From Serpula lacrymans var. lacrymans S7.9 (Eukaryota > Basidiomycota > Agaricomycetes > Boletales > Serpulaceae): DNA of 64,000 nucleotides. Where the stretch lies: positions 124,001-188,000 of the forward strand of contig NW_006763297.1 of assembly GCF_000218685.1 (NCBI RefSeq), in the 5' to 3' direction. The position numbers and the translations under genes were made by a program. The notes beneath the pieces are model-generated. The model worked only from the letters and a program-made list of their open reading frames with translations. It ran no database searches and was not told the origin of the DNA. Numbering within the stretch: the first letter of the stretch is position 1; each line of letters starts with the position of its first letter. This document shows, piece after piece, positions 28,290 through 64,000 of this stretch.

Positions 28290-29042
28290 GATCTATAACT
28301 TAGGTCTCATTCGGCCCAACGAATAAATTCCATTTGAAGTCAGTTTGAAGTCAGTTCAGGCTGGTCACATGACTATCCATGACAATTTCAGACGGAAAAA
28401 TCGGTCATTCAAAGGCAGGTCCCGCCGCGGAAGTTCCCGGCCTGTTGGGAGCCTCTCCAGGGCAGTGTCAGGCAATGAATACAAAGCTATATAACAAAAT
28501 ACAATGCCTGGTCAAGTCCTTGCTGGAAGGTGGTGAATCAGGGTATGAGTTTTGAAGAGTATCGGTATAGGCACAAATCCAAACTAATATTGAACTAGAG
28601 AATAATACATCGAGTATGTATTTCTTTATATAGTGAACAGCGATGGTCAGACCGAGAAAGGGAAGGACTAAGAAAGTGGTCTGACCAGCTAGCTAACCAA
28701 TAAGAAAAGAAGGAGAAAGTGGTCCAATCTATCGTATTTACTAATCGTATGAGAAAACGTATTGGTAAGGGGTGTGTGATTGGCTGTATCAGTAAGCCCA
28801 TGAGAAGGCGCTGACTCACAACCTTCTTTGCTTATCAATATCCCTCCGAAGTATCCCCAGACATAGCACTGGATCGTTGCTATGTCATTTGGATATCTTC
28901 TCGAGGGTCTACAACAAGTCTCCTTTGTTGTAAGTATGATAGGACGTGAGTGTGAATAGAGAATAAGAAGAAAAAGGATAAAAGTAATAAAACACCTGCT
29001 GTGATCTCTAGTCCAAGGGCCAGAGGGGTGACAGGGATCGAG

Positions 29043-29383
29043 TGTCACGACCTGAACAAGAGCGCTAGTTTCTTTTTCATTTTCTTTAATATCTGATCAC
29101 ATGACAGATATATTATGTTAAGCTGCTGCTATTAGCGCGGATAACATAATACTTAGTTATATCAGATCACGTGACCACCACGTGACAAAAGAGCCTAGAA
29201 CTATTACAAAGAACAGCAGTCAGCGCCTCATGGCTGACTTTCAGAAACGTATATATAGTGAACACCTATGTACATATTTCCCTCAGTTGTTGATTACTTC
29301 TCAATCGATTACTTGTGACGCTACTTGTCGATTTAAGGTCTTCATCCCTCCGTTAGTTCGGTATAAGGGATAAGGCTTTTACA
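29043..29383 (+). repeat. 5' LTR of the chromovirus
   Basis: 341 bp, TGTCACGACC..CTTTTACA. It contains TATATATAG at 29250-29258. The 3' LTR is 33 bp longer because a segment containing TCAGCGCCTCATGG is repeated there. Confidence 0.95.
29250..29295 (+). promoter_or_regulatory. Core promoter and predicted transcript 5' end in the LTR
   Basis: TATATATAG (29250-29258) lies 34 nt before CAGTTGTTGATT (29284-29295). The latter is the exact reverse complement of the 12 nt just after the LTR (29385-29396). In self-primed Tf1-type elements the transcript starts with the bases that pair with the primer site, so 29284 is the predicted start. The TATA spacing agrees with this. Confidence 0.7.
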
Positions 29384-29384
29384 C

Positions 29385-29396: not shown

Positions 29397-29411
29397 CCAC
29401 GAGTACCGTCC

Positions 29412-29621
29412 ATGAACGTAACAGCAACAATCCTAACCACCATCACCGTCATCATCATCATCATCTTCCTCATCCTAGCCCTACTCAAACGTTCAATCCA
29501 AACTACCACTACCCTCCCACTTCATCACATCCCCACTCGCCCCAACACCATTTTATCCTTCTTTCCCGCCAACGTATCACCCTCATCCTCCCAAGACTCT
29601 TTTGTCACCATCCCCCTCTAG
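29412..29621 (+). CDS. Short leader frame with one membrane segment in the chromovirus
   Basis: The first ATG after the primer site opens a 69-codon frame: a short start, a strongly hydrophobic segment (TTITVIIIIIFLILALLKRS) and a Ser/Thr/Pro-rich tail. It lies in the leader, 507 nt upstream of the gag ATG. Low-complexity codons (ATC repeats) could make such a frame by chance. It is listed because other LTR families in this window also carry small frames with one membrane segment. No homologue is known to me. Confidence 0.35.
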   Translation: MNVTATILTTITVIIIIIFLILALLKRSIQTTTTLPLHHIPTRPNTILSFFPANVSPSSSQDSFVTIPL

Positions 29622-30128
29622 TTACACTTTTATATCATCATAATCTCTTTGGTGTGGAACCACTGGGATTTTCTCGGTTTTACGTAATTTCATCCTTCGA
29701 ATTCCTCTGACCAGGCCGCGCATTTGCGTCCGCCAGTCGGGAGAAGAACTGACAGCTTAATAAGCGGGTTACATTGGGACAACCGTTCGGACCCCAATTT
29801 ATTACGATACTTTTTACATAAAATTCATAAAATACAAAAATAGTTACCTTACATACATAGTCAGTGGTGGACAGAAGAGGACCACCTTGACTCAAAGAGA
29901 AAAGATAGACTACTAAGATCTTAGAAAGCGGTGTATCGATCCAGCTTATCACTGGTGAACTCCTTTCTATGCTCAGTAGAGAATTATACATTTGGATAGG
30001 AGAGCAACGCGTCTACTCCCAAGATTACGTATTCAGAGGACAATTTCCTCTACCAGAAATAACAACAATCAGAATCCCATCCCCCGTGATTAAATCCGAA
30101 ACTCCCCCTCCTCCCCAACTCAAATTCG

Positions 30129-31247
30129 ATGTCAAACCTAGAATATCGAGATCTGCCCGAGCCATCCAACAGCACGGACAGCGCCTTCACCAGGGAAATG
30201 ATGGACTCATTACCCAGAATAGAAACTCCCCCCCCGAAAGAAGCGCAATTGGAAGCATTCGTAAAACAAGAAGTGGAAAAGGCAGTAAGAGCAACATGAA
30301 TGCTTTACCAATCACAATTAGACGAGGCACTCGAAGAAGTGAGCGTCTTAGAAAGAAAGTTAAAGAAGCAACCGCCACCACCTCCAGAAAGAACGGAGAG
30401 AAGTAGAACGGCATTGGAGAAGCCAGAAAACTTCTCCGGAGATAAGAAAAAGTACAGGGCCTTTAGAGAGTCCTTACTTCTACATTTCGAAGATGATGCC
30501 ATCTACTTCAAAGACGATAGAAAAAAGATAAGCTTCGTGCTATCTTTTATGAAAGAAGGAGAAGCCGCGGCCTTTCGGACCGACTGGCTGGAGAACCGGG
30601 TCGACGCTCAACAAATGGGGCTCGACATCACAAACACATACGGAAGCTGGCCGTATTTCGCAGACAAAATGGAAGAAAGATTCAAGGACAGCTTTGAAAA
30701 AGAAGCTGCCAAGAATGAAATATTGACCCTAAAACAGGGCAATGAAACCGCCCAAGCCTTTTTTGAAAGGTTTGAAGAAAAGAAAAGATGGGCGGGATAC
30801 ACAAATAGGATAAATGAAGAGTTCCTAATATCTCTACTCAGAAGAAATATGAATAAGCCGCTAATAGATAGGGTGATCTACGGTGGGCATATTCCTAGAG
30901 ATTACCAAGAGTGGAAAAGAGAACTCATCAGAATGGACTATATTTGGAGAGAAAGAGAGAAAGAAAAGAAAGGTTCCGAAAACGGAAAGAAATCCTATTC
31001 GGAACAAAAGAAAGAAGGAGAGAAGAAAAGAGACGGAACAGGGTATACTTATACCGGTAACGGAGAATGAATGGAGGTGGATAAAGCGAAGTTCCGCACC
31101 GAGGGACGATGTTACCGATGCGGAGAGAAGGGACATAGAAGCTTCGAGTGCAAAGACGCACAAAAAAAGAAGCCGCAATTTAATGTCCGAGAATTCTTAG
31201 AAAAAATGACGAAAGAAGAAAGGGAAAAACTCCTAGAGGGTTTTTAA
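30129..31247 (+). pseudogene. Chromovirus gag with two in-frame TGA stops
   Basis: The frame starts at ATG 30129 (MSNLEYRDLPEPSN) and runs to TAA 31245-31247. TGA codons at 30297-30299 and 31068-31070 interrupt it; both could have come from CGA or TGG by one transition. Between them lies a capsid-like helical region (PENFSGDKKKYRAFRESLLL, then ALEKP and WREREKE parts). After the second stop comes a nucleocapsid zinc knuckle, C-Y-R-C-x4-H-x4-C, at 31110-31151. Gag forms the virus-like particle that packages the element RNA. The pol frame is reached by a -1 shift at the very end. Confidence 0.85.
31238..31244 (+). promoter_or_regulatory. Candidate -1 ribosomal frameshift heptamer (gag to pol)
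   Basis: G-GGT-TTT, of the X-XXY-YYZ form, sits in the gag frame and is followed directly by the gag stop TAA. A slip of one base backwards enters the open pol frame (TTA AAA AGG). A palindrome GCGGTACCGC lies 11 bases downstream (31256-31265). The frame relation was checked: gag is in frame with 30129, and pol is in frame with the YLDD codons at 32984. Confidence 0.65.
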
Positions 31248-34188: not shown

Positions 34189-36002
34189 TGTCATGCACCA
34201 AAGTTGATTGGTAGCATGGACAGGTGTCAATAACGAAGCGAATATTCAAAAAAGACTCGCCTTTGCGCCACACAGGCACAGTGCCACGTGGAATAGTAAT
34301 TAATATAGCCCTTTTTGAACTTGTGGCTGATCAGCACCACCTCTATTAGGCAATCCAGTCACGCTCACCTTTGCTTTTCCATCCGGTACTTTCCGTGTTT
34401 CGGCATTTCGGCAAATTTTTGCGTCGCCACTGGCTACACATTGCATTGCGCCCTCGCTTTTGTCGTTTCCCTTACTCCCCTTCCTTTGCCTAGCCCCACC
34501 ATGGGCCCCTTCCTCTCCTTTTTATTCTCACCTGACGGTCGTTTCTGGGTCCCCATTCTAATCCACTTGTTTGTCACCTCCACCCTCCTCCTCCTCATCT
34601 TATTTGCACCCCCACCATTTCTGATGTCACCACTTCCTATCTGCTTCCGTCGCCAATCCGTTGACTACCACGTGCCACTGCTGATATCAGCAAAGCCCCG
34701 GCGGCCGGTCCAAATAGGGCAACAGGTCCATCTTCATGACGTCAATCTGCCATCATATACTATCAAAACATCGGTCGCTCGTCTTGCCTGGTTGGAGCGT
34801 GGGTGGGTAGTTTTTGAGCTGGAAAAGGTTCATCCCCTTGCGTCGCCCATGTTCATCGCTGTCCCATTCACTTGGGTACACTTATCATTTGTCCATTGTC
34901 TTCGCTACAGCTACACCTACCACATGCTGCCTGGGACTCACTTGTTCCAAATTGGAACTACTCCTCTCCCTCCCTCGTTTGATCAGGTGGTCCAACATAA
35001 CCAGTCCATTGGTAAGGCCATGGAACTGTCGGATTTGGACTAGGTGGTGGACTGGTGGCTCCAGTTTCTTTTTTTTAGCAGAACATTCATTTACAGTGCG
35101 ATTATTTTTGATTTTTGAATCATTTTTATGGACACATATTTTTTTAGAATGCCTGACTGACAATAAAGGAACTGTGTTGATACTGATAGTGTTTTGCCTT
35201 GCCCTTTTTTTACTGCATCTTCCCATGACATCATGATTTTCCTGCTCTCTTTTTGCTATTGGACTTTACTTTATGGCTGTACAAACCTGTGACATTACTC
35301 ACAGCATTTATTGTTCTATCCCTTTCTTTTCCTTTTTTTTGACAATCTTATCCTGTACTACCTACGCAGGATTTGTCAGCGTACATTCCTTCCTTCATAT
35401 TCTTTCTCATTCTTTTTGCACAGCTATACTGTGCATAGCCTACTTTTCTTTTACTATATAAACCCCTGTATTTTACCTTGTAAAATAGAACAAGAACTCC
35501 AATCCAGACTTCTTCTCTAATCTCAAGTTCACTACTCTCTGCTACTTGTGATCCAGTGTGGTCACAACACTTCCCACTTCTACCACTGTTAACTGCTGTC
35601 ATCGTCACTCGTCACTTTTTGAAAGTGATTGTCATCCCCTTCGATTAGAGTCCTTCTGAGCACTACAGTTTGTGCGTCAGGAGCCTGCTATCACTGGGAA
35701 CCTCGTCATATTGTCGTTCTCAAACCTACCTTGTGCTACGATTAGCAAGGTAGTGCTCGTCTATACTCGTCACCAAGCCTCTATCCTTCTATAAATTCAA
35801 CTATCCCTCCTCCTCAAAACCCACACTCATACACCTCTGGGTTTTACTTTGAAGGATCTTTATACGTACCACCCCACGAACAACCAGACCACTCCACTGT
35901 TCTAGGAGGCAAAGCCCATAAACAAGTTCCGTGGAATCTGGGAGGATTGTGTGTTAGTTTGTTTTGTGTGTGGTTTTCTAACTGCAGTTCTCATCATCGA
36001 CA
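34189..36002 (+). mobile_element. LTR-X copy 1, solo LTR inside the integrase gene
   Basis: 1814 bp, starting TGTCATGCACC and ending CATCATCGACA, flanked by ACGT at 34185-34188 and 36003-36006; removing it restores the integrase reading frame. It has no direct terminal repeats of its own and no inverted repeats beyond TGTC/GACA, as expected for a single LTR. An ACTATATAAACC TATA box lies near 35452-35463, so roughly the first 1.27 kb is U3. It carries a 180-codon frame at 34501-35043. Confidence 0.88.
34501..35043 (+). CDS. U3-encoded single-span membrane protein, LTR-X copy 1
   Basis: 180 aa from the ATG in a CCCACCATGGG context. A short N-terminus (MGPFLSFLFSPDGRFW) is followed by a hydrophobic segment at about residues 17-38 (PILIHLFVTSTLLLLILF). 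The rest is a roughly 135-residue globular-looking region with strand-like pieces (GQQVHLHDVNLPSYTIKTSV, RGWVVFELEKV, FTWVHLSFVH) and a conserved AMELSDLD end. The frame lies in U3, between the pol end and the TATA box. The longer upstream frame has only a TTG start. I do not recognise a family. Copies 2, 3 and 4 encode the same length protein without stops. Confidence 0.6.
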   Translation: MGPFLSFLFSPDGRFWVPILIHLFVTSTLLLLILFAPPPFLMSPLPICFRRQSVDYHVPLLISAKPRRPVQIGQQVHLHDVNLPSYTIKTSVARLAWLERGWVVFELEKVHPLASPMFIAVPFTWVHLSFVHCLRYSYTYHMLPGTHLFQIGTTPLPPSFDQVVQHNQSIGKAMELSDLD

Positions 36003-37266
36003 ACGTAGATGGATGCGAAGTCTGCCAAAGAACCAAGACAGACCATAAAAAGAAAGCAGCACCGCTCCATCCAAACGAGATCCCGGATAAACCGTGGCAG
36101 ATCATATCGGACCATTACCAGAATCAAATGGATATAACATGATAATGGTAATAGTGGATCGGTTTACAAAAATGATCAAGGTAATTCCCACGCAGATGGA
36201 AATCACATCGGAAGGAGTGGCATGATTATTTAGAGATCATGTATTCAGAAACCACGGCATACCCGAAAAGATCATCTCAGATCGAGGACCGCAGTTCGTT
36301 TCAAAATTCATGAAAGATCTACATACACTTCTTCAGATAAAAGCAAACCCATTGACGGCTTGGCACCCACAAACGGATGGACAAACGGAGAGGATCAATC
36401 AAGAGATAGAGCAGTATCTCAGAATCTTCGTAAACCATAAACAAGATGATTGGGCAGAATGGCTTACCCTAGCAGAGTTCTCTTACAATAACAAACAACA
36501 TTCTGCAACGGGATATAGCCCGTTCTACTTGAATCATGGACATCATCCGAGAACACAGGAAGTAGTGAAAGTGGGGGTAAAGAACGAAAATGCGGAAGAT
36601 TTCGTAAAAAGAATGACAGAAACGAGGAAGAAAGCAGAAGAGTCGCTGCAAAAAGCAGCTGAATAGATGAAGAGGCAGTACGATAAGAAGAAAAGAGAAG
36701 CGGTGGAATATAGAGTAGGAGATAAGGTGTATGTGGAAGCAACAAATATCTCAACGGATCGACCAGCTAAGAAACTGGACGATAAGAGACACGGCCCGTT
36801 CGAGATACTGGAAAAAATAGGCGAATCAGCCTATAAACTAGCATTACCACCGACATGGCGACCCATTCATCCAGTCTTTAACGAAATAAAACTCACGCCA
36901 TATAAAGAACCACAATTCCCTTCCCAACAGAAACCTAAACCGATACCGCCGGTAATAGTAGACGGACAAGAAGAATATGAAGTCGAAGAAGTTCTAGACT
37001 CACGTCTAAAAAAGGGAAAATTGGAATATTTAGTACATTGGAAGAATTATCCAAAAGAGGAACGCACATGGGAACCCGAACAACACCTAAACAACTCACC
37101 AGACAAAGTAAAAACATTCCACGATAACAACCCTAGTGCACCCCGACGGATACGATTCCAATTACATTTCCAACCGTTCGAAAACTTCACAACGACTAGA
37201 GTCCGAAAACAATTGTTCAATTGGGAAAACGGAAAAATGGACCCCTACTTTCGAGACGAAAGTCCT

Positions 37267-37276
37267 AAGGAGGGGG
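37267..37276 (+). other. Polypurine tract
   Basis: AAGGAGGGGG, three bases before the 3' LTR; the expected plus-strand DNA primer site of the chromovirus. Confidence 0.8.
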
Positions 37277-37279
37277 TAA

Positions 37280-37653
37280 TGTCACGACCTGAACAAGAGC
37301 GCTAGTTTCTTTTTCATTTTCTTTAATATCTGATCACATGACAGATATATTATGTTAAGCTGCTGCTATTAGCGCGGATAACATAATACTTAGTTATATC
37401 AGATCACGTGACCACCACATGACAAAAGAGCCTAGAACTATTACAAAGAACAGCAGTCAGCGCCTCATGGCTACTGCATGTTATATCAGTCAGCGCCTCA
37501 TGGCTGACTTTCAGAAACGTATATATAGTGAACACCTATGTACATATTTCCCTCAGTTGTTGATTACTTCTCAATCGATTACTTGTGACGCTACTTGTCG
37601 ATTTAAGGTCTTCATCCCTCCGTTAGTTCGGTATAAGGGATAAGGCTTTTACA
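37280..37653 (+). repeat. 3' LTR of the chromovirus
   Basis: 374 bp, matching the 5' LTR apart from one visible base change and a 33-bp insertion at about 37470-37502 that repeats TCAGCGCCTCATGG. The last pol codons overlap its first 26 bases. Confidence 0.95.
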
Positions 37654-37896
37654 TCGAGTCTGTTAACCACAACATGACGGGAATGCGATAAGAAAAATCG
37701 ATTCCTCACAGGCAGGTTCTATTATAAGGGGCATTGTATGTGCTGTACATGAGCTCAAGTCGGGTGGCCATACCGAACTTGTTAATTTCCGTGTGCTTCT
37801 GAAGCTTCTGATATGGATCGGTTTGCTGAAGCTGGTAAGCTAATTACTCTAATATCTAGTAAAATCCTGAGCTACCAATAAACAGATCATGATGAT

Positions 37897-39207: not shown

Positions 39208-41028
39208 TGTCATGCACCAAAGTTGATTGGTAGCATGGACAGGTGTCAATAACGAAGCGAATATTCAAAAAGACTCGCCTTTGCGCCACACAGGCACAGT
39301 GCCACGTGGAATAGTAATTAATATTGCCTTTTTCAAACTTGTGGCTAATCAGCACCACCTCTATTAGGCAATCCAGTCACGTTCACCTTTGCTTTTCCAT
39401 CCGGTACTTTCCGCGTTTTGGCATTTCGGCAAATTTTCGCGTCGCCACTGGCTACACATTGCATTGCGCCCTCGCTTTTGTCGTTTCCTTTACTCCCCTT
39501 CCTTTGCCTAGCCCCACCATGGGCCCCTTCCTCTCCTTTTTATTCTCACCTGACGGTCGTTTCTGGATCCCCATTCTAATCCACTTTTTCGTCACCTCTA
39601 CCCTCCTCCTCCTCATCTTATTTGCACCCCCACCATTTCTAATGTCACCACTTCCTATCTGCTTCCGTCGCCAATCCGTTGACTACCACGTGCCACTGCT
39701 GATATCAGCAAAGCCCCGGCGGCCGGTCCAAATAGGGCAACAGGTCCATCTTCATGACGTCAATCTGCCATCATATACTATCAAAACATCGGTCACTCGT
39801 CTTGCCTGGTTGGAGCGTGGGTGGGTAGTTTTTGAGCTGGAGAAGGTTCATCCCCTTGCGTTGCCTATGTACATTGCTGTCCCATTCACTTGGGTACACT
39901 TATCTTTTGTCCATCGTCTTCGCTACAGCTACACCTACCACATGCTGCCTGGGACTCACTTGTTCCAAATTGGAACTACTTCCCTCCCTCCCTCGTTTGA
40001 CCAGGTGGTCCAGTACAACCAGTCCATTGGTAAGGCCATGGAACTGTCGGATTTGGACTAGGTGGTGGACCGGTGGCTCCAGTTTCTTTTTCTTCAGCAG
40101 AACATTCATTTACAGTGCGATTATTTTTGATTTTTGAATCATTTTTATGGACACATATTTTTTTAGAATGCCTGACTGACAATAAAGGAACTGTGTTGAT
40201 ACTGATATTTTTTTGCCTTGCCCTTTTTTTACTGCATCTTCCCATGACATTATGATTTTCTTGCTCTCTTTCTGCTATTGGACTTTACTTTATGGCTGTA
40301 CAAACCTGTAACATTACTTACACAGCATTCATTGTTCTATCTCTTTCTTTTCCTTATTTTGACGATCTTATCCTGTACTACCTATGCAGGATTTGTCAGC
40401 ATACATTCCTTCCTTCATGTTCTTTCTCATTCTTTTTACACAGCTATACTGTGTATAGCCTACCCCCCTTTTACTATATAAACCCCTGTATTTTACCTTG
40501 TAAAAACAACAAGAAATCCAACCCAGACTTATTCTCTAATCTCAAGTTCACTACTCTCTGCTACTTGTGATCCAGTGTGGTCACAATACTTCCCGCTGCT
40601 ACTACTGTTAACTGCTATCATTGTCACTCGCCACTTTTTGAAGTCATTGTTATCCCTTTCAATTAGAGTCCTTCTGAGCACTACAGTTTGTGCATCAGGA
40701 GCCTGCTATCACTGGGAGCCTTGTCACCTTGTTATTCTCAAACCTACCTTGTACTACTATTAGCAAGATTGTGCTTGTCCATACTTGTCATAAAAACCCT
40801 ATCCTCTATATTTCAACTACCCCTCCTCCTCAAAACCCACATCCACATATTCTTGGGTTTGACTTTGAAGGATCATTGTACATACCACCCCACGAACAAC
40901 CAGATCACCCACTGTTCTAGGAGGCAAAGCCCACAAACAAGTTCTGTGGAATCTGGGAGGATTGTGTGTTAGTTTGTTTTTGTGTGTGGTTTTCTGACTA
41001 CAGTTCTCATCATTGACACCGCTGACCT
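39208..41028 (+). mobile_element. LTR-X copy 2
   Basis: 1821 bp, TGTCATGC..CATTGACA, plus orientation, highly similar to copy 1. The left flank is CCGG and the right flank CCGC, which agree in three of four bases. The two flanks also come from different sequences (LTR-Y on the left, a transposase-like gene on the right), so this copy may be a recombinant. The TATA box is near 40474. Confidence 0.85.
39519..40061 (+). CDS. U3-encoded single-span membrane protein, LTR-X copy 2
   Basis: 180 aa, same length and layout as the copy at 34501-35043, no stop or frameshift. Differences are scattered, for example I for V and F for L next to the membrane segment, and T for A in KTSVTRLAWLE. The intact frame in a repeat copy that no longer transposes is notable. 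Confidence 0.6.
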   Translation: MGPFLSFLFSPDGRFWIPILIHFFVTSTLLLLILFAPPPFLMSPLPICFRRQSVDYHVPLLISAKPRRPVQIGQQVHLHDVNLPSYTIKTSVTRLAWLERGWVVFELEKVHPLALPMYIAVPFTWVHLSFVHRLRYSYTYHMLPGTHLFQIGTTSLPPSFDQVVQYNQSIGKAMELSDLD

Positions 41029-42399: not shown

Positions 42400-44214
42400 T
42401 GTCGATGATGAGAACTGTTGTTAGAAAACCACACACAAAACAAACTAACACACAATCCTCCCAGATTCCACGGAACTTGTTTATGGGCTTTGCCTCCTAG
42501 AACAGTGGAGTGGTCTGGTTGTTCGTGGGGTGGTACATATAAAGATCCTTCAAAGTAAAACCCAGAGGTGTATGAGCGTGGGTTTTGAGGAGGAGGGATA
42601 GTTGAATTTATAGAAGATAGGGGCTTAGTGACGAGTATAGATGAGCACTACCTTGCTAATGGTAGCACAAGGTAGGTTTGAGAACAACAAGGATGACGAG
42701 GTGACGAGGTTCCCAGTGATAGCAGGCTCCTGACGCACAAACTGTAGTGCTCAGATGGACTCTAATTGAAAGGGATAACAATGACTTCAAAAGTGGGAAG
42801 TGACGATGACAGCAGTTGACAGTGGTAGAAGTGGGAAGTGTTGTGACCACACTGGATCACAAGTAGCAGAGTAGTGAACTTGAGAGTAGAGAAGAAGTCT
42901 GGATTGGAGTTCTTGTTCTATTTTACAAGGTAAAATACAGGGGTTTATATAGTAAAAGAAAAGTAGGCTATGCACAGTATAGCTGTGTAAAAAGAATGAG
43001 AAAGAACATGAAGGAAGGAATGTATGCTGACGAATCCTGCGTAGGTAGTACAGGATAAGATTGTCAAAAAAAGGAAAAGAAAGAGATAGAACAATGAATG
43101 CTGTGAGTAATGTCACAGGTTTGTACAGCCATAAAGTAAAGTCCAATAGCAAAAAGAGAGCAGGAAAATCATGATGTCATGGGAAGATGCAGTAAAAAAA
43201 GGGCAAGGCAAAACACTATCAGTATCAACACAGTTCCTTTATTGTCAGTCAGGCATTCTAAAAAAATATGTGTCCATAAAAATGATTCAAAAATCAAAAA
43301 TAATCGCACTGTAAATGAATGTTCTGCTAAAAAAAAGAAACTGGAGCCACCAGTCCACCACCTAGTCCAAATCCGACAGTTCCATGGCCTTACCAATGGA
43401 CTGGTTATGTTGGACCACCTGATCAAACGAGGGAGGGAGAGGAGTAGTTCCAATTTGGAACAAGTGAGTCCCAGGCAGCATGTGGTAGGTGTAGCTGTAG
43501 CGAAGACGATGGACAAAAGATAAGTGTACCCAAGTGAATGGGACAGCAATGTACATAGGCAACGCAAGGGGATGAACCTTTTCCAGCTCAAAAACTACCC
43601 ACCCACGCTCCAACCAGGCAAGACGAGCGACCGATGTTTTGATAGTATATGATGGCAGATTGACGTCATGAAGATGGACCTGTTGCCCTATTTGGACCGG
43701 CCGCCGGGGCTTTGCTGATATCAGCAGTGGCACGTGGTAGTCAACGGATTGGCGACGGAAGCAGATAGGAAGTGGTGACATCAGAAATGGTGGGGGTGCA
43801 AATAAAATGAGGAGGAGGAGGGTGGAGGTGACGGAAAAGTGGATTAGAATGGGGATCCAGAAACGACCGTCAGGTGAGAATAAAAAGGAGAGGAAGGGGC
43901 CCATGGTGGGGCTAGGCAAAGGAAGGGGAGTAAAGGAAACGACAAAAGCGAGGGCGCAATGCAATGTGTAGCCAGTGGCGACGCAAAAATTTGCCGAAAT
44001 GCCGAAACACGGAAAGTACCGGATGGAAAAGCAAAGGTGAGCGTGACTGGATTGCCTAATAGAGGTGGTGCTGATCAGCCACAAGTTCAAAAAGGGCAAT
44101 ATTAATTACTATTCCACGTGGCACTGTGCCTGTGTGGCGCAAAGGCGAGTCTTTTGAATATTCGCTTCATTATTGACACCTGTCCATGCTACCAATCAAC
44201 TTTGGTGCATGACA
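42400..44214 (-). mobile_element. LTR-X copy 3, solo LTR in the transposase-like gene
   Basis: 1815 bp, minus orientation, flanked by CCGC at 42396-42399 and 44215-44218. Removing the element and one CCGC restores a continuous frame across the site (ending FGLAA, continuing SNNTITFGG). It forms an inverted pair with copy 2 around a 1.4-kb spacer. Confidence 0.92.
43362..43904 (-). CDS. U3-encoded single-span membrane protein, LTR-X copy 3
   Basis: 180 aa, intact. The membrane segment reads PILIHFSVTSTLLLLILF. The ATG context CCCACCATGGG is identical in all four copies. Confidence 0.6.
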   Translation of the reverse strand: MGPFLSFLFSPDGRFWIPILIHFSVTSTLLLLILFAPPPFLMSPLPICFRRQSVDYHVPLLISAKPRRPVQIGQQVHLHDVNLPSYTIKTSVARLAWLERGWVVFELEKVHPLALPMYIAVPFTWVHLSFVHRLRYSYTYHMLPGTHLFQIGTTPLPPSFDQVVQHNQSIGKAMELSDLD

Positions 44215-45397: not shown

Positions 45398-45813
45398 TGT
45401 AACAACCAAGAGTTTGTTACTCTGGTGCACAACTAGAACTAACTATAGAGATAAATGATGAGGGAGTGGTTACCCTTTAGGCTTCAACAAGTTAGTTGTG
45501 AGGATACAACAGGAGGACTCGCTGAGGAGTCTCCTTGATCTATTGGGGTATATATACTACTACAGGTTTGTTTGTACATATGTACTATACAGTTGATGAA
45601 GGCAGTGGCTGATGATGTCAGAGGGCGCAGCCCATGTGACCAGCTCCACTGCGTGAGAGACTTGTATCTAAAATAGAAAGAAAAGCAGCGCCGCATGAGA
45701 AAGTGGAGTTTGAACAAAAGGGAAAGTGCTGCATGGCATGGAGTGTGAAAACTACAGTAAAAGGTTAAAGAGGAGAATGAAAATTAAAGGTCCGAAAATG
45801 TGTTATTGTAACA
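45398..45813 (+). mobile_element. LTR-Y copy 2, solo LTR
   Basis: 416 bp, TGTAACAACC..TTATTGTAACA, flanked by ATAGC at 45393-45397 and 45814-45818. A TATA-like ATATATACTAC lies near 45549. No membrane-type frame was seen in this LTR family. Confidence 0.9.
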
Positions 45814-46695: not shown

Positions 46696-47331
46696 TGTCA
46701 GGCAACAAATACAAAGCTATATAACAAGAACAGATGTCTGGTTAAGTCCCTTGAAAAGGGCGGTGAATCGGAGTACTGAAGTTGAAGAGTATTGGTATAG
46801 GCGCAAATCCAAACTAATATTGAACTAAGGAATGATACATCGAGTATGTACTTCCTTATATAGTGAATAGCAATGGTCAGACCAAAAGAGGGAAGAGTTA
46901 AGAAAGTGGTCTGACCAGCCAACTAACCAATAAAAAAAAGAAGGCAAAAGTGATCCGATCTATCATATTTACTATTTGTGTGAGAAAGAGTATTGGTAAG
47001 AGATGTACAATTGGCTATATCAGTAAGCCCATGAGAAGGCACTGATTCATAGCCTACCTCACTTATCTATATTCCTCCGAAGTATTCCCAGACATGGCAT
47101 TGGATTATTGCTATGTCATCTGGATATCTTCTTGAGGATCTACAACAGTTCTCCTTCGTTGTAAATATGATAGGATGTGAGTATGAATGGAAAATAAAAA
47201 GGACAATAAAAAGGATAAAAGTAATAGAATGCCGATTGTGATCTCTAGTCCAAGAGCGAGAGGAGTGACAGGGAAAGAGTTGGATAACCACGACATGACT
47301 GGAATGCAATAAGAAAAATTGATTCCTCACA
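46696..47331 (-). mobile_element. LTR-B copy B, solo LTR
   Basis: 636 bp, minus orientation, flanked by GGAAT at 46691-46695 and 47332-47336. A TATATAG box on the minus strand near 46858 places most of the LTR in U3. Confidence 0.93.
47111..47296 (-). CDS. U3-encoded small membrane protein, LTR-B copy B
   Basis: 61 aa, starting 35 nt inside the LTR. N-terminus MSWLSNSFPVTPLALGLEIT, then a hydrophobic segment (IGILLLLSFLLSFLFSI), then a basic tail (YLQRRRTVVDPQEDIQMT). Copies A and C encode the same tail ending DIQMT, and the diverged LTR-D keeps the N-terminal motif. No known family comes to mind. Confidence 0.55.
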   Translation of the reverse strand: MSWLSNSFPVTPLALGLEITIGILLLLSFLLSFLFSIHTHILSYLQRRRTVVDPQEDIQMT

Positions 47332-47744
47332 GGAATGGTGAAGTTGCCATTTGAAAGATCTGAACCTTTGCTTAGCAGATATTGTGTGATAACACTGATA
47401 AGATCATCATGCCGCAACCGCCATGGATCCTCAAGCTCAATAAGCAAGCCATCAACAAAGGTTTTTTACCATATTCACTACCATCCTTGCATAAGTTGTA
47501 TACTATTATAAAAGTGTTTTCTTGTCTACTATTAAGCCTATCTCATCCCATACATCATTACTGACCGGTGAGGCCTGGGTTTGTGAACTGATGAATAGAC
47601 ATCCAGACTGAATCTGACACAATCTCAATGTCAATCTCAAGGTTTTTGAGCTCTTGCTTGACAACTTACACCAAAATGGTTTTACAATGTCATGCAATGG
47701 GGTAGCACTTGAGGAGGGAGCAGCTATCAATTTTCTAATATGGG

Positions 47745-48328
47745 TGCTACAATTAAAGTTTTGATACTCTGGCGCACAACTCAGACAAAGCTATGGAGGA
47801 AGTGAGGGGGAGTGGTTACCCCTTAGGATAGGACCAAGTTAGTTGTAGGTGAACAACAGGAGGACTCGCTGAGGAGTTTCCTGGATCTATTGTGGTATAT
47901 ATACTACTACAGGTTTGTTTGTACATGTGTACTATACAGTTTTGATGGAGGCAGTGGCTGGTGGTGTCGTGGGGCACAGCCCGTGTGACCAGCCCCACTG
48001 CGTGAGATACTTGTAGCTAAAAATAAGAAAAGGCAGCGCAGCGTGAGAAGGTGGAGTTTGAACAAAATGGAAAGTGAGAAACTATTTAATGCGGATACTA
48101 TGCAGAGCATTTTCAAGTTGGTGTTTTGGCGAGGTTCATTGTCAATGGGATAACATTATGGAGAGAACATCGCCCACTGGTTTTTGTCGTTGGCAGAGGG
48201 ATTGGTGGTACTATCCCCAGGCATACATTTCACAGAAATTTGCCGCATGGCACAAGGTGTGAAAACTACAAGAGAAAGTTGAAGAGGAGAATGAATTCTA
48301 AAGGTCCAAAAATTGTGTTATCATAACA
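47745..48328 (+). mobile_element. LTR-Y copy 4, longer variant
   Basis: 584 bp, flanked by ATGGG at 47740-47744 and 48329-48333. It matches LTR-Y along its ends but carries about 170 bp extra at about 48075-48245 that the 414-416 bp copies lack. Confidence 0.85.
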
Positions 48329-49125
48329 ATGGGTTTGTTACGGGATTATCTAGCCACTATATTGGAAAACATTTCCAATTTTCACCAGAAACCATCTCCC
48401 AGTACATATTTGAACATTCATAAGAACACTACTGACACAACCAATTCAGATATTCTAAAAGATTATTTTTTGTCCACTCCACTTCACACAATATGTGTAC
48501 AACTCCCCAGCACTCAGACCCCCATTTCCAACAAAATTTGCTTTGAGCTAAAATTCTGGTTCTTTGCAGACGCGCTCAGTGCTGTAGACGGCACAAACAT
48601 CCAAGTCACATCTATTAGCAATGGAGATCACACTATAATGCACAACTGCAAGGGTTTCTTATTGCAAAACTTCTTCTTCATTTGCAAGTTCAATTTTTTC
48701 TTCACATATTTACTTTGTGGCTGGGATGGGTCTATCACAGATACATTCCAGAAATGATGCACACAAACATGACATGTTTCCCTGCAGGCAAGTATCTGCT
48801 TGCAGATGCAGGCATTGGTACTTGTGATGCACTGCTTGTGCCTTATTACAGTGTCTGTTATCATTTGAAATAGTGGACTCAAACTGGCTCAAGGTGAGTA
48901 CCATTTTCTTTTTTTTTTCTCTACTAAAGCAAGTAAAAAAAAACCAGTCCAAAGAATCCACAAGTACTTTTTAATTTGCGGCACACTATGTTGCGCAATG
49001 TTGTTGAACAGATTTTTTGTGTTCTCAAGTGTTAATGGTGGATCCTCTAGCTTCCTCCTGAATACAGCTTGCAAATTCAAGCCCATATCCCATTAGCACT
49101 ATGTGCCTTGCATATTTTCATCCAT

Positions 49126-49798
49126 TGTGAGGCAACAATAAACTATAACAAAAATACTACTCGTCTCCGACTGCACTTGCAGGGAGTAAGAGGTACAGTG
49201 AGTCTTGAAGATCGACAGATGCTAGTGAATATAGCAAATTGAGGATATGGGAGTAGACTCAGCAGTTTCTGATGAGAGGTAAAACAGATAATTCAAGTAA
49301 TAGAAAGCTAAAGAACAATACATGAGTATATAGGGTTTTTATAGCTAACTGTCTATCCCTCAGACCGAAAGAAGAATAAAAGGAAAGTGGTCTGAGGGGA
49401 AAATCAACCAATAAGAAAAAGGATAACTATCATACAACTTTGACGATTAATCAGCAGGTGGGAAAGTGTACTAATAATAAGTGTTGTCACGCGTGTTCAG
49501 GAACTGTATCCTCATGATGAGGTACAATCCTGACTAAAGCGTCTATTAGTATCTCCAGGCACTGATGGGGCTTGGAGCTGGTTGGCGAGATGTCTACCAC
49601 TAGCCCTTACCCATTGTGCTGGCTGGCTGGGGGTGATACCCAGTCTCTGATCTATAAAGTGGTAACAATGGTTGAGAAAGCCTGTGAGGGCTATGAGAAG
49701 TAGAATAGCAAATGATACCTCCAGCCCTAGAGCCAGAGGTGTAATGGGAAAAGCGTTCAAAAACCAAGACATAGAGAAAATAATAAATGGTCCTTACA
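49126..49798 (-). mobile_element. LTR-D, solo LTR related to LTR-B
   Basis: 673 bp, minus orientation, flanked by TCCAT at 49121-49125 and 49799-49803. Its 3' end (read as TGTGAGGCAACAATA on plus) matches LTR-B (TGTCAGGCAACAAAT), and the segments with GTGGTCTGA and CCAATAAGAAAA are shared, but most of the sequence has diverged. Confidence 0.88.
49512..49772 (-). CDS. U3-encoded small membrane protein, LTR-D
   Basis: 86 aa, starting 26 nt inside the LTR. The N-terminus MSWFLNAFPITPLALGLEVS aligns with LTR-B copy B over 19 codons: 14 residues are identical, and 8 of those 14 codons differ only at the third base. A hydrophobic segment follows (FAILLLIALTGFL); the C-terminal tail is longer and different. 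The synonymous pattern argues that this frame was under protein-level selection. Confidence 0.6.
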   Translation of the reverse strand: MSWFLNAFPITPLALGLEVSFAILLLIALTGFLNHCYHFIDQRLGITPSQPAQWVRASGRHLANQLQAPSVPGDTNRRFSQDCTSS

Positions 49799-49861
49799 TC
49801 CATAAGCACAATCTAATGTGTTCCTTGCAAGAATTTGACAACAGCAGTGATGACTAGGAGG

Positions 49862-50266
49862 TGTGACAACACCAACAAGACATAGTCTTGGGGTACTGGA
49901 GCATAACCACAGCAATATTCAGTGGGGGATAAGGAAGTGTACAACTCATTAAGAGAGGGAGGTTGTCATACTAATGTTGGTATACACTAGAAGAGGACTT
50001 GCTGAGTCCCTCCCCTTCAATTAGAGTCCTTCTGAGCACTACAGTTTGTGCGTCAGGAGCCTGCTATCACTGGGAACCTCATTATCTCGTCATTCTCAAA
50101 CCTACCTTGTGCTACAATTAGCAAGGTAGTGCTCATCTATACTCGTCACTAAGCCCCTATCTTCTATAAATTCAACTATCCCTCCTCCTCAAAACCCACA
50201 CTCATACATCTCTGGGTTTTACTTTGAGGGATCCTTATACGTACCACCCCATGAACAACCAGACCA
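49862..50266 (+). repeat. Chimeric fragment: LTR-Y-like piece joined to an LTR-X 3' piece
   Basis: 49862-50010 starts TGTGACAACACC and ends with the GGACTTGCTGAGTCC block seen in LTR-Y. 50012-50266 matches the last part of LTR-X (TTAGAGTCCTTCTGAGCACT onwards) but stops before its terminus. The join falls in a short CCCCTT-like shared run. Confidence 0.55.
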
Positions 50267-50591
50267 AGTTACACTGTTGAAGCGTACAATCATATTGAAG
50301 ATGGTAACTACAATACAGGTGTATATATATACTTGTCTACTTTAGGGTAGGTGTTTGTGTTGAACAAACAATGACAGGTGAAACCATAATAGGTAACAAT
50401 ATGTGGGAAAGTAAAGGTAAGTAGCGGTGTATAGCTACTTGAGAAAGAAAATGAAGTCCGTAGAGAACATAGTTTGTAACACCTGGGAGGTGAAGGATAG
50501 GATCATCTGGATCAAAAGAGAGTCCGCAACGAGTTCCTACCCGATCCCATTAGCTGACCGTGTCTACATCCCTCAGAACCATAAACTACGT

Positions 50592-52678
50592 TGTCGATGA
50601 TGAGAACTGCTGTTAGAAAACCACACACAAAAACAAAATAACACACAATCCTCCCAGATTCCACGGAACTTGTTTATGGGCTTTGCCTCCTAGAACAGTG
50701 GAGTGGTCTGGTTGTTCGTGGGGTGGTACATATAAAGATCCTTCAAAGTAAAACCCAGAGGTGTATGAGCGTGGGTTTTGAGGAGGAGGGATAGTTGAAT
50801 TTATAGAAGATAGGGGCTTAGTGACGAGTATAGATGAGCACTACCTTGCTAATGGTAGCACAAGGTAGGTTTGAGAACAACAAGGATGACGAGGTGACGA
50901 GGTTCCCAGTGATAGCAGGCTCCTGACGCACAAACTGTAGTGCTCAGAAGGACTCTAATTGAAAGGGATAACAATGACTTCAAAAGTGGGAAGTGACGAT
51001 GACAGCAATTAACAGTGGTAGTAGTGGGAAGTGTTGTGACCACACTGGATCACAAGTAGCAGAGAGTAGTGAACTTGAGATTAGAGAAGAAGTCTGGATT
51101 GGAGTTCTTGTTCCTTTTTACAAGGTAAAATACAGGGGTTTATATAGTGAAAGAAAAGTAGGCTATGCACAGTATAGCTGTGTAAAAAGAATGAGAAAGA
51201 ACATGAATTGAAGGAATGTACGCTGACAAATCCTGCATAGGTAGTACAGGATAAGATTGTCGAAAAAGGAAAAGAAAGGGATAGAACAATGAATGCTGTG
51301 AGTAATGTCACAGGTTTGTACAGCCATAAAGTAAAGTCCAATAGCAAAAAGAGAGCAGGAAAATCATGATGTCATGGGAAGATGCAGTAAAAAAAGGGCA
51401 AGGCAAAACACTATCAGTATCAACACAGTTCCTTTATTGTCAGTCAGGCATTCTATAAAATATGTGTCCATAAAAATGATTCAAAAATCAAAAATAATCG
51501 CACTGTAAATAAATGTTCTGCTGAAAAAAAAGAAACTGGAGCCACCGGTCCACCACCTAGTCCAAATCCGACAGTTCCATGGCCTTACCAATGGACTGGT
51601 TGTACTGGACCACCTGGTCAAACGAGGGAGGGAGGGAAGTAGTTCCAATTTGGAACAAGTGAGTCCCAGGCAGCATGTGGTAGGTGTAGCTGTAGCGAAG
51701 ACGATGGACAAAAGATAAGTGTACCCAAGTGAATGGGACAGCAATGTACATAGGCAACGCAAGGGGATGAACCTTCTCCAGCTCAAAAACTACCCACCCA
51801 CGCTCCAACCAGGCAAGACGAGTGACCGATGTTTTGATAGTATATGATGGCAGATTGACGTCATGAAGATGGACCTGTTGCCCTATTTGGACCGGCCGCC
51901 GGGGCTTTGCTGATATCAGCAGTGGCACGTGGTAGTCAACGGATTGGCGACGGAAGCGGATAGGAAGTGGTGACATTAGAAATGGTGGGGGTGCAAATAA
52001 GATGAGGAGGAGGAGGGTAGAGGTGACGGAAAAGTGGATTAGAATGGGGATCCAGAAACGACCGTCAGGTGAGAATAAAAAGGAGAGGAAGGGGCCCATG
52101 GTGGGGCTAGGCAAAGGAAGGGGAGTAAAGGAAACGACAAAAGCGAGGGCGCAATGCAATGTGTAGCCAGTGGCGACGCGAAAATTTGCCGAAATGCCAA
52201 AACGCGGAAAGTACCGGATGGAAAAGCAAAGGTGAACGTGACTGGATTGCCTAATAGAGGTGGTGCTGATTAGCCACAAGTTTGAAAAAGGCAATATTAA
52301 TTACTATTCCACGTGGCACTGTGCCTGTGTGGCGCAAAGGCAAGTCTTTTTTGAATATTTGCTCCGTTATTGACACCTGTCCATGCTACCAATCAACTTT
52401 GGTGCATGACAACGCCCTTCAATATGCATCTCGTGTTGCACAATATCTTCCCCTGGAGCATTTGCAAGAAACGCGGAAAGTACTGAATGGAAAAGCAAAG
52501 GTGAGCGTGACTAGATTGCCTAATAGAGGTGGTGCTGATTAGCCACAAGTTCGGAAAAGGCAATATTAATTACTATTCCACGTGGCACTGTGCCTGTGTG
52601 GCGCAAAGGCGAGTCTTTTTGAATATTCGCTTCGTTATTGACACCTGTCTATGCTACCAATCAACTTTGGTGCATGAC
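50592..52678 (-). mobile_element. LTR-X copy 4 plus partial 5' LTR: internally deleted LTR-X retrotransposon
   Basis: A full LTR-X on the minus strand (50592-52411) is separated by 56 bp from the first 211 bp of another LTR-X (52468-52678). The outer flanks are ACGT (50588-50591) and ACAT (52679-52682), a 4-bp duplication with one G-to-A change. This fits a two-LTR element that lost its inside. The 56 bp reads, on the minus strand, as a polyprotein end that runs into U3 (EMHIEGRCHAPKLIGS, then MDRCQ and stop), so LTR-X belongs to an LTR retrotransposon whose pol overlaps its 3' LTR. Confidence 0.75.
51557..52099 (-). CDS. U3-encoded single-span membrane protein, LTR-X copy 4
   Basis: 180 aa, intact, closest to copy 2 (shares KTSVTRLAWLE and GTTSLPPSFDQVVQYNQS). 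One difference is PIRF for PICF after the membrane segment. Confidence 0.6.
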   Translation of the reverse strand: MGPFLSFLFSPDGRFWIPILIHFSVTSTLLLLILFAPPPFLMSPLPIRFRRQSVDYHVPLLISAKPRRPVQIGQQVHLHDVNLPSYTIKTSVTRLAWLERGWVVFELEKVHPLALPMYIAVPFTWVHLSFVHRLRYSYTYHMLPGTHLFQIGTTSLPPSFDQVVQYNQSIGKAMELSDLD

Positions 52679-53344
52679 AACATGCACAAATATTGAAAGA
52701 TCATCACAACAAAGCTCTTGTGGGACACCCAGGAGAAAGGACAATGTTTGAATGAGTAAACCAAGAACTCTGGTGGCCGAGTCATTGCACAGATATCAGA
52801 CGAAATGTATGAGGATGCGAGACTTGTCAACAAACCAAGGCACATTGGACAAAGTCTAAGGCCCCTCTACATCTGAATCCAATACCCGATTGGCCCTGGC
52901 AAGTTATCACCACTGACCTCATAGGTGCGCTCCTGGAATCTAAGGGATAAACCACCATTCAGGTCTTTGTAGACTGATTTAGCAAGACTTTTGTCACCCT
53001 TGACTCCGCCGGTTACGCACATCAGCTCAGAGACAATGTAATACAACTCCATGGAATTCCTGAAAAAATCATCTCTGATTGAGGCCCTCAGTTTATGCCG
53101 TGATTTACTAAAGACTTCTATGAATTGATGGGAATAATGCCAGGCCTTTCTACAGGTTATCACCCTCTGACGGATGGACAGTCTGAATGGATCAACCAGG
53201 ATCTGGAGCACTACCTTTGTGTCTTCATAAATCACAGACAGGACAACTGGGCAGATTGGCTCTCCATCGCTGAATTCACATACAATGATCATCTCCATAC
53301 TGCAACAAATCAAACACCTTTCTTTTTAAACTATGGTCTGCACC

Positions 53345-53758
53345 TGTAACAACCAAGAGTTAGTTACTCTGGCGCACAACTAGAACAAACTATAAAGGTA
53401 GTGAGGAGGGAGTGGTTACCCCTTAGGTAGGACCGACTTAGTTGTGGGTAAACAACAGGAGGACTCACCGAGGAGTCTCCTGGATCTATTGAGGTATATA
53501 TACTAATACAGAGTGTTTGTACTTATGTACTGTACAGTTGATAAAAGCAGGGGCTGATGATGTCAGAGGGCGCAGCCCATGTGACCAGCTCCACTGCGTG
53601 AGAGACTTGTATCTAAAATAGAAGGAAGGGCAGCGCCGCGCGAGAAAGGGGAGTTTGAACAAAAGGGAAAGTGCTGCATGGCACGGAGTGTGAAAACTAC
53701 GGTAAAAGGTTATAGAGGAGAATGAAAATTAAAGGTCCGAAAATGTGTTATCGTAACA
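53345..53758 (+). mobile_element. LTR-Y copy 3, solo LTR in the second pol remnant
   Basis: 414 bp, TGTAACAACC..TTATCGTAACA, flanked by GCACC at 53340-53344 and 53759-53763, inserted between integrase core and GPY/F coding sequence. Confidence 0.92.
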
Positions 53759-54510
53759 GCACCCACAAACAAATACTACCATTACATCATCCCCTCTATC
53801 TGTCTTCGCCACCGAGTTTGGTGAACAAATGAAACAGCTCCATGACCTCACAAAATCCTCCCTTCTTTTAGCAAACGACAATCTCAGACATTACTATGAC
53901 TGTAAGAGATCCCCACCCCAAGAATATCAAACTGGCAACAAAGTCTGGTTGGAAGGACACAACATCACAACAGACAGACCAATGAAGAAACTGGGCAACA
54001 AGCATTTTGGTCCTTTTAAAATCATCCAAGAAGTTGGATCTTCCACCTACCGACTTGACATCCCAAAAAGTTGGAAATTCATTCACCCAGTGTTCAATGA
54101 AGCCATCCTATTGCCATACCATACTCCCAAATTCTCTAATCAACCTATCTCCTCAAGGCCACCACCTGAAATTGCTGAAGGAGTAGACAGATACGAAGTA
54201 GAAAGTATAGTTGCATCCAGACCTACCAAACTATGAACCACTAAACTCGACTACTTGGTCCACTGGCATGGTTATCCAGTCTCAGAGCAAACTTGGGAAC
54301 CTGACACCAACTTACACATGTCTCCAATTTGCTCGCCATAAAACGCATTCTGCTGCCCCTTGCATCATCACTGCTTCACTTCATTTCTGTCCCTATGAGA
54401 ATTACACTGCAATTTCTAAATCTCCAATGCTTTTTGATTGGATTACCAATCAGTTCCAAAGTGCCACTTCCGGACTTATGAGGACACAAGTCTTATAAAA
54501 GGAGAGCTGA

Positions 54511-55138
54511 TGTGAGGAATCAATTTTTCTCATTGCATTCCCATCATGTCGTGGTTAGCAGACTCAATCCCTGTCACTCCTCTTGCCCTTGGACTAGAGA
54601 TTACAGCAGGTGTTTTATTACTTTTATCCTTTTTCTTCTTATTCTCTATTCACACTCACGTCCTATCGTACCTACAACAAAGGAGACTTGTTGTAGACCC
54701 TCGAGAAGATATCCAGATGACATAGCCACGATCCAGCGCTATGTCTGGGAATACTTTGGAGGAATATGGATAAGCGAAGAAGGTTATGAGTCAGCGCCTT
54801 CTCATGGGCTTACTGATACAGCCAATCGCACATCCCTTACCAATACGTTTTCTCATACGATTAGTAAATACGATAGATCAGACCACTTTCTCCTTTTTTT
54901 CTTATTGGTTAGCTGACTGGTCAGACCACTTCCTTAGTTCTTCCCTTTCTCGGTCTGACCATCACCGTTCACTATATAACGAAGTACATACTCGATGTAC
55001 TGTTCTCTAGTTCAATATTAGTTTGGATTTGCGCTTATACCAATACTCTTCATCCTCATACCCTGATTCACCACCTTCCAGCAAGGACTTGACCAGGCAT
55101 TGAGCTTTGTTATATAGCTTCGTATTTGTTGCCTGACA
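54511..55138 (+). mobile_element. LTR-B copy C, probably the 3' LTR of the pol remnant
   Basis: 628 bp, TGTGAGGAATC..TTGCCTGACA, with no matching short repeats on its two sides (GCTGA and GTACA). Its 5' side is a purine-rich tract after chromodomain coding sequence, so it is best read as the 3' LTR of that element, its partner LTR lost. TATATAA lies at about 54973. Confidence 0.8.
54546..54725 (+). CDS. U3-encoded small membrane protein, LTR-B copy C
   Basis: 59 aa, starting 35 nt inside the LTR: N-terminal MSWLADSIPVTPLALGLEIT, a hydrophobic segment (GVLLLLSFFFLFSI), and a tail ending VVDPREDIQMT. A second, longer frame (from 54512, 134 codons) overlaps in another phase. I prefer the MSW frame because LTR-D conserves it by synonymous changes and the other frame is not kept there. 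Confidence 0.55.
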   Translation: MSWLADSIPVTPLALGLEITAGVLLLLSFFFLFSIHTHVLSYLQQRRLVVDPREDIQMT

Positions 55139-63458: not shown

Positions 63459-64000
63459 CTAAACGTTCGTAGATGGGTCTGTCTTTTCTGTCTGTGCGTC
63501 ATCCTTCTTTTCCGTCTCGGTCCCCGCTCCATGTGTCAGTTTTTCACCCACCTTCCCATCCTCGTGGGATATTGCCAGAGGTGCAGTGGATTTCTCTCGA
63601 TTCTTTTCGGGGTCATTTAACTCTATGTCACGTTTTGCTTCTCTTTGCGCTATCACATCCTTTCTAGCTTCAAGACCACCTTCGTAACCAAACCATCGCT
63701 TTCGTGAACAATGCGGTCCTCGTAACAACAAGATGAAAAACTGCCATCCAAACAATGCCATCGATAGGCCGGATGCCGCTCGCCAACCATATTTAGTGAA
63801 AACTTGCGTCCCAACAGACGTCCCAATCACTTGACCAATGAAAAGCTGGCAGAAGGGTGAGTAAACTAAAACATAACGAATAAGTGTGACTAGCTACCGA
63901 TAGAATCAAAATAGCGTTAAGACGAGCACGTGCAGCCGATGAGATGCTGTATACACAAAGTTCTGGTTCAGACTTTTCCCCTATCGTTAGTGAACACTTG
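63459..64000 (-). CDS. Major facilitator superfamily transporter, C-terminal part (runs off the edge)
   Basis: The last exon (63459-63845) and part of the previous one (63898 to about 63950) are visible, joined by an intron at 63846-63897 (GTAGCT..TGCCAG). The joined sequence gives SSAARARLNAILILSLFIGQ followed by VIGTSVGTQVFTKYGWRA, a pattern of late MFS helices, and one more membrane span (LSMALFGWQFFILLLRGP). A long charged cytoplasmic tail follows (about 80 residues rich in Lys, Glu, Asp). The substrate is unknown. The N-terminal helices lie beyond the right edge. Confidence 0.78.

Follow-up and report, generated by a model that had tools for sequence, protein, structure and literature searches.

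The long terminal repeats (LTRs) of two families of Ty3 retrotransposons in Serpula lacrymans var. lacrymans S7.9, here called B and D, contain a short open reading frame (ORF) that, judged from its sequence, is almost certainly a real gene under selection. The frame was studied in a stretch of 64,000 nucleotides (nt) of contig NW_006763297.1 (assembly GCF_000218685.1, positions 124,001 to 188,000 of the forward strand; the window), which carries three copies of LTR-B and one LTR-D. The observations as a whole are probably best explained by an accessory gene lying in the U3 region of the LTR of Ty3 elements, perhaps expressed from an internal promoter and perhaps encoding a membrane tether.

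54546..54725, + strand: ORF of LTR-B copy C, 59 amino acids (aa), MSWLADSIPVTPLALGLE, with a predicted transmembrane helix and a basic tail
54511..55138, + strand: LTR-B copy C, 92% identical to the LTR-B of the B element L069 over positions 1-629
47111..47296, - strand: ORF of LTR-B copy B, 61 aa, with a 6-nt in-frame insertion relative to L069
46696..47331, - strand: LTR-B copy B, as aligned to LTR-B
28880..29043, - strand: 3′ part of the ORF of LTR-B copy A, open on its own to the usual stop
37653..37675, - strand: 5′ piece of the ORF of copy A, 23 nt starting with ATG, cut off by the later insertion of an LTR element
49512..49772, - strand: ORF of LTR-D, 86 aa long because of a frameshift past about codon 40 (family form, 56 aa)
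49126..49798, - strand: part of LTR-D that aligns to the LTR-D of the D element L070

The family form of the ORF is 59 aa long in B and 56 aa in D, and the encoded protein reads MSW(L/F)..(F/I)P(V/I)TPLALGLE in both, followed by one predicted transmembrane helix and a basic tail. An earlier reading of the window from sequence only had placed the frame 26-35 nt inside the LTR, which agrees with starts at 35 nt into LTR-B and 26 nt into LTR-D of the window; in L070 the frame begins 35 nt inside the LTR. The same reading had assigned the motif FPxTPLALGLE to all four copies. This is correct for copy B and LTR-D, whereas copies A and C read IPVTPLALGLE. Its comparison of copy B with LTR-D was reproduced: 14 of the first 19 residues are identical, 8 of the 14 shared codons differ, all at the third base only, and the five replacements are L/F, S/L, S/A, V/I, and I/V. 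An LTR element some 8.6 kb long interrupts the ORF of copy A, the two pieces of which were examined separately. Within the window, the only sequences to pass the threshold in a profile search with the family are the frames of the three copies of LTR-B and of LTR-D; a short open stretch at 63621-63704 (+ strand) matches the MSW profile weakly (E 0.011) and falls under the inclusion threshold. Hypothetical proteins of S. lacrymans var. lacrymans are 92-93% identical to the product of copy C, one of them exactly 59 aa long, and 56-aa forms of the D type are likewise annotated in this fungus. In the 42.6-Mb assembly (29 contigs), 139 of the 150 matches listed for the B protein are free of stops, a count biased by the choice of these 150 from 695 candidates by protein score. 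Among rows sampled by similarity of the non-coding LTR, 8 of 23 from B and 12 of 22 from D have the frame intact, counts that take in rows with the 5′ part missing or unrelated.

Because part of the first set of copies had been collected by protein searches, and such searches favour conserved proteins, copies were picked anew by the non-coding part of the LTR. Twenty of 41 listed B places and 20 of 42 listed D places were fetched, giving 23 B and 22 D rows together with the window copies and references; 18 rows of each family were used after 5 B and 4 D rows with an ORF region missing, replaced, or unrelated over its length had been dropped. The sequence-only reading had proposed to compare the ratio of nonsynonymous to synonymous substitution (dN/dS) in this frame with that in other frames, and within this genome the comparison reveals purifying selection in both B and D. 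By the NG86 method, dN/dS in the frame is 0.20 in B (95% codon bootstrap 0.13-0.29) and 0.19 in D (0.11-0.32); the range is 0.73-1.63 for the same DNA read in other frames and 0.50-0.77 for the non-coding LTR. The exception among the control frames is mirror frame -2 (0.22 and 0.29), the third positions of which coincide with those of the ORF frame. The values below 1 in the non-coding LTR probably arise because transitions dominate there (81% and 78% of non-coding differences). A codon model allowing for transition bias yields an omega of 0.386 for B, 0.389 for D, and 0.345 jointly (first 44 codons), compared with 0.717-1.218 for six non-coding pseudo-frames. Between old and young B copies of the first set, dS is 0.653 and dN 0.100; after subtraction of the within-group means, which include self-comparisons, about 0.46 and 0.06 remain, a ratio of about 0.14. 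The mean pairwise difference at codon positions 1, 2, and 3 amounts to 0.109, 0.097, and 0.243 in B and to 0.087, 0.055, and 0.161 in D. In the same samples the non-coding LTR differs by 0.10-0.17 on average, a low figure because the samples were chosen for similarity there. Counted insertions and deletions (indels) occur in the frame at one fifth to one eighth of their density in the rest of the LTR (per kb, 1.31 vs 6.54 in B and 2.06 vs 16.77 in D), each copy being counted against one reference so that shared indels enter more than once. Protein-score picking as the whole cause of the signal is ruled out, as the result was repeated with copies picked by the non-coding LTR. Ten LTR pairs of young elements show 1 synonymous and 2 nonsynonymous differences in total and are thus too alike to provide a neutral yardstick. 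In tests of single pairs against simulated neutral evolution over the first 19 codons, P was 0.001-0.003 for B vs D and 0.0005-0.0035 within B and within D; single pairs are weak evidence, and it is the pooled results that carry the claim of selection.

The LTRs of B and D align in two blocks, LTR nt 15-89 (68%) and the core promoter at 379-529 (70%). The first block is made up of part of the short leader and the first 18 codons of the ORF; every other match in this alignment was at most 23 nt long with E of at least 0.38. Equal conservation of the non-coding parts of the LTR, an outcome that the sequence-only reading had named as speaking against its proposal, was looked for and not found, the core promoter being an understandable exception.

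The layout of the elements was read from a single element of each family, L069 for B and L070, which lacks a few bases of its 5′ end, for D. By its Pfam domains the B element is a chromodomain-bearing Ty3 element, i.e., a chromovirus: its gag contains zf-CCHC, and its pol, open over 1339 aa, contains RVP_2, RVT_1, RT_RNaseH, Integrase_H2C2, rve, and Chromo. The D gag likewise carries zf-CCHC, and the D pol is interrupted in L070; the two pol proteins match in two pieces with 71% and 56% identity. The LTRs of a pair are 100% identical in B (560 nt compared) and 99.9% identical in D (856 nt compared). A purine tract precedes the 3′ LTR in both elements, and a primer-binding site after the 5′ LTR was identified in neither. 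The ORF occupies nt 36-215 of LTR-B, and the TATA box of the LTR lies at 464 in B and 478 in D.

54973..54979, + strand: TATA box of the LTR's own promoter in copy C, downstream of the ORF and within the conserved core-promoter block shared by B and D

Its position upstream of the LTR's own TATA box places the ORF in U3, and by geometry the genomic RNA should therefore hold it once, at the 3′ end, right after pol. The 3′ placement put forward by the sequence-only reading is borne out, since pol stop, polypurine tract, LTR start, and ATG all fall within about 52 nt. The frame is thus found where a U3 accessory gene is expected, between pol and the presumed R region and upstream of the LTR TATA box.

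Relatives of the protein extend beyond the B and D families. One of them (P0010) is a 63-aa protein in a 603-base ENA record, 64% identical to the B type in the alignment. Public protein searches, which were of limited reach, returned Serpula proteins and P0010 only, and 22 pattern matches in viral contigs included no relative of the LTR ORF. A further relative belongs to family E, another Ty3 lineage with a pol only 23% identical to that of B.

L131:438-674: MSW-type protein of the E element, 78 aa, directly upstream of pol, beginning MSWLEGFHITKEALIIEIVVGVLLVLALF

Against a profile of the B, D, and ENA proteins, the E protein scores E 1.1e-7, with 53% identity over 34 columns and an alignment running from residue 1 of both. 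A search of the assembly with the E protein (150 scored of 180 candidates) gave 23 copies of the same type, followed by the B LTR ORFs, which begin at E 2.7e-4. The shared start, register, and motif spacing make a chance likeness of the E protein to the MSW protein unlikely. Judged by its sequence, the protein upstream of pol in this distantly related Ty3 lineage has the same combination of N-terminus and predicted helix. Together with P0010, it indicates that the gene is probably older than the split of B and D. The MSW proteins may even form an ancient family of fungal Ty3 microproteins that has moved between an internal site (E) and the LTR (B, D), where it would be served by a promoter made from pol stop codon and polypurine tract and active at the 3′ end only, although the odds lie slightly against this wider proposal. 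Under it, accessory genes in U3 would have arisen in LTR retrotransposons separately from those of retroviruses.

The protein is very probably inserted into a membrane, as far as can be predicted. The sequence-only reading had noted one hydrophobic segment, in keeping with a single 19-residue hydropathy peak and a single long predicted helix. The peak reaches 2.25-2.55 in the B, D, and E proteins and in P0010; in all four the N-terminal side of the hydrophobic stretch is neutral or acidic and the C-terminal side basic. AlphaFold, given nine sequences, places a long helix at residues 12-49 and a short one at 53-56; the mean predicted local distance difference test score (pLDDT) is 90 for residues 11-20, 96 for residues 21-30, and 88 for residues 31-40, and the whole model has a mean pLDDT of 77.5 and a predicted template modelling score (pTM) of 0.42. 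According to the positive-inside rule, the basic side of a membrane helix faces the cytosol, so that the C-terminus would be cytosolic. The protein would then sit in an internal membrane with its N-terminus out and its C-terminus in, and the basic tail would tether Gag or the retrotransposon ribonucleoprotein, aiding assembly or trafficking; this tethering role is proposed tentatively. With 56-59 aa and a single predicted helix, the product is too small to hold the parts of a retroviral-type Env, namely signal peptide, furin site, fusion peptide, coiled coil, and C-terminal anchor. A Pfam search of the LTR ORF gave one match, for one of eight members, to an unrelated channel family (E 0.25), and the best chain in a PDB sequence search had E 0.13.

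How the protein might be expressed is suggested by the sequence immediately in front of the 3′ LTR.

54494..54501, + strand: TATAAAAG box, in which the pol stop codon (54496-54498) joins the polypurine tract; immediately outside the 3′ LTR, 52 nt ahead of the ATG

In the three contexts measured, the distance from the start of the box to the ATG is 52-53 nt. Among 75 distinct stretches upstream of an LTR start, 14 are element sequence (9 B, 5 D); of these internal contexts, 13 contain TATAAAAG and one contains TATAAAAA. None of the other 61 flanks, those of 5′ and solo LTRs, contains TATAAAAG or TATAAAA. One further D flank flagged by a looser motif rule proved not to be element sequence. It is conceivable, at somewhat less than even odds, that pol stop codon and polypurine tract have been built into an internal 3′ promoter; TATAAAAG would then drive a short transcript of the 3′ end, begun just within the 3′ LTR, from which the protein would be translated. 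The box is confined to LTRs with element sequence in front of them, so the ORF would not be expressed in this way from 5′ or solo LTRs. The inference draws on four families, of which B and D share ancestry.

The main alternative to an internal promoter is reinitiation after pol: the gene would be real and expressed from the genomic RNA by ribosomes that stop at the end of pol and restart at the LTR ATG. The distance from pol stop to ATG is short (47 nt in copy C and L069, 48 nt in L070), and in both B and D a purine is found at position -3 of the ATG. Reinitiation after long frames is usually inefficient in eukaryotes, however, and the B pol has 1339 codons; moreover, an ATG followed immediately by a stop (ATGTGA, ATGTAA) spans the LTR boundary between pol stop and ORF in both families, which leaves this route rather unlikely. 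The ATG-stop pair is located at 54510-54515 of the window and at the matching places in L069 and L070. As to function, the protein might, instead of tethering particles, counteract a host defence factor in the manner of Nef or Vpu, or act as a viroporin. A predicted single-helix membrane microprotein in the 3′ U3 would fit such a part, as would a tail that has diverged between B and D next to a conserved N-terminus. Yet the N-terminal motif is conserved rather than fast-evolving, the Pfam and PDB searches gave no match to a known family, and no host target is known, and we regard this function as unlikely. Retroelements do capture genes, and the frame could derive from a small membrane protein gene of the host, perhaps taken up in an ancient capture. 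Such an origin is improbable: no obvious host relative was present among those matches viewed, a part of the 150 scored for each of the B, D, and E queries out of 695, 1025, and 180 candidates, and the limited public searches likewise produced no protein outside Serpula other than P0010. Three odd tail matches of the E query turned out to be two B copies, one of them cut by a D LTR, and one weak, unrelated match lacking the MSW start.

That the frame is no gene at all, but a chance frame in LTR DNA conserved for other reasons, e.g., as a regulatory element, is very improbable. Many copies are recent and nearly identical, and their open frames are hence not independent; in addition, one non-coding control frame gave P 0.0055. 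The predominance of third-position changes in both families (B 0.243 vs 0.109 and 0.097; D 0.161 vs 0.087 and 0.055), dN/dS of 0.19-0.20, and the rarity of indels in the frame nevertheless rule out a mere chance open frame, and the relatives in another record and in lineage E argue in the same direction. Several observations do weigh against the preferred reading of a U3 accessory gene with its own promoter and a tethering product. The case for the gene is built from sequence. In the single-pair test of B vs D, P rises to 0.03-0.09 over 34 codons and to 0.06-0.20 over 44, and the control frame with P 0.0055 was one of three. Young D copies have a ratio of 0.41, against 0.53-1.33 in other frames, and an omega near 0.39 is not very low, as would be expected if dead copies are included. 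For the E protein, the uncorrected ratio is 0.51-0.80 (three copies, two of them old and broken) and that of its other forward frames 0.43-1.13, so that no clear selection signal emerges, and hydrophobic low-complexity helices inflate profile scores. The topology and the tether role would follow from general rules. Finally, the family C element of the window and a family E element, one of each, lack TATAAAAG at the corresponding place, and its occurrence in B and D could reflect shared ancestry plus chance.

To our knowledge, retrotransposon LTRs are usually treated as non-coding regulatory DNA, and annotation and masking accordingly discard frames of this kind. Known accessory genes at comparable positions belong to retroviruses. 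Lentiviral Nef is a membrane-associated product of a 3′-end accessory gene that reaches into U3 of the 3′ LTR; it is myristoylated, about 200 aa long, translated from a spliced mRNA, and begins upstream of the LTR. Sag of mouse mammary tumour virus (MMTV) is encoded by an ORF within U3; it is a type II glycoprotein, far larger than the product of the LTR ORF, and works as a superantigen. Adaptive immunity is absent from fungi. The resemblance to Nef and Sag drawn in the sequence-only reading stands as regards position, in U3 at the 3′ end of the genomic RNA, and extends to a membrane product, predicted in the present case. It does not extend to sequence, given the Pfam and PDB results (E 0.25 and 0.13). 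Unlike Nef, the LTR ORF lies wholly inside U3, has a predicted transmembrane helix, and belongs to a fungal Ty3 element; unlike Sag, its product has 56-59 aa. The ORF occupies the position of Nef and Sag and is a member of neither family. Foamy viruses possess a second, internal promoter with a TATA box near the 3′ end that serves accessory genes. A putative second TATA near the 3′ end is found here as well, with the difference that the box would consist of pol stop codon and polypurine tract.

Bdelloid LTR retrotransposons offer a parallel outside retroviruses, compared here by description only: the parts of the text available describe a small transmembrane ORF3, in one clade of 220-230 aa with two hydrophobic regions and cysteines, which resembles the Serpula frame as a small extra ORF with a transmembrane segment and is not placed inside the LTR there (PMC5408684). 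A study of fungal chromoviruses in 25 species, Serpula not included, deals with the same superfamily of chromodomain-bearing Ty3 elements as B; the available portion of its text describes no ORF inside an LTR, while a figure legend names an additional ORF that may be of the same kind (PMC2864245). The phrases 'gene in the LTR' (PMC3087523) and 'LTR ORF' (PMC12037069) have different meanings in the passages seen. The literature search, which did not reach most subscription journals, turned up no account of an ORF within the LTR of a fungal retrotransposon, and a search for literature on six Serpula locus tags found none. A selected U3 gene in abundant fungal Ty3 elements would mean that a solo LTR is also a gene copy and that an accessory-gene layout of retroviral style exists outside retroviruses. 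It would also supply a small, testable protein for asking what an envelope-less retrotransposon does at a membrane.

A second frame was observed in the LTRs of family E, of which the window contains four stand-alone copies.

34189-36002 (+ strand), 39208-41018 (+ strand), 42400-44214 (- strand), 50592-52411 (- strand): stand-alone E LTRs of about 1.8 kb, repeats in the window
34501-35043 (+ strand), 39519-40061 (+ strand), 43362-43904 (- strand), 51557-52099 (- strand): 180-aa ORF in the E LTR, with one hydrophobic segment near the N-terminus

This 180-aa frame is free of stops in 146 of the 150 genome matches listed, which were chosen by protein score from 1042 candidates. In five copies, the uncorrected ratio of nonsynonymous to synonymous differences (pN/pS) is 0.31, the remaining forward frames giving 0.77 and 1.69. 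Common descent with the MSW protein was considered and rejected (E 0.27 in a profile comparison); the 180-aa protein has no Pfam match, and its AlphaFold model has a mean pLDDT of 45. If it is real, the same genome holds a second accessory gene of the U3 type, and with two unrelated frames in different LTR families, LTR-coded genes may be commoner than noticed. Directly upstream of the E LTR at 50592-52411, the start of the E LTR (about 215 nt) is repeated at 52412-52679 (- strand).

Some further features of the elements and the window were recorded. L069 and L070 contain a long extra ORF between 5′ LTR and gag, open over 395 and 384 aa, respectively; the two are 25% identical over 308 aligned positions and have no Pfam match. 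In each element a shorter frame precedes and overlaps this ORF, and the two shorter frames look alike by eye, which suggests a spliced or frameshifted ORF1. The element of family C that lies inside the ORF of copy A extends over 29043-37653, with LTRs of about 340 and 375 bp starting at 29043 and 37280 that are 99-100% identical in two blocks, and it contains a stand-alone E LTR. An LTR-like repeat starting TGTAACAACC sits at 53345-53758 in the broken pol upstream of copy C, and stretches related to it are found at 45436-45813 and 47783-47912.

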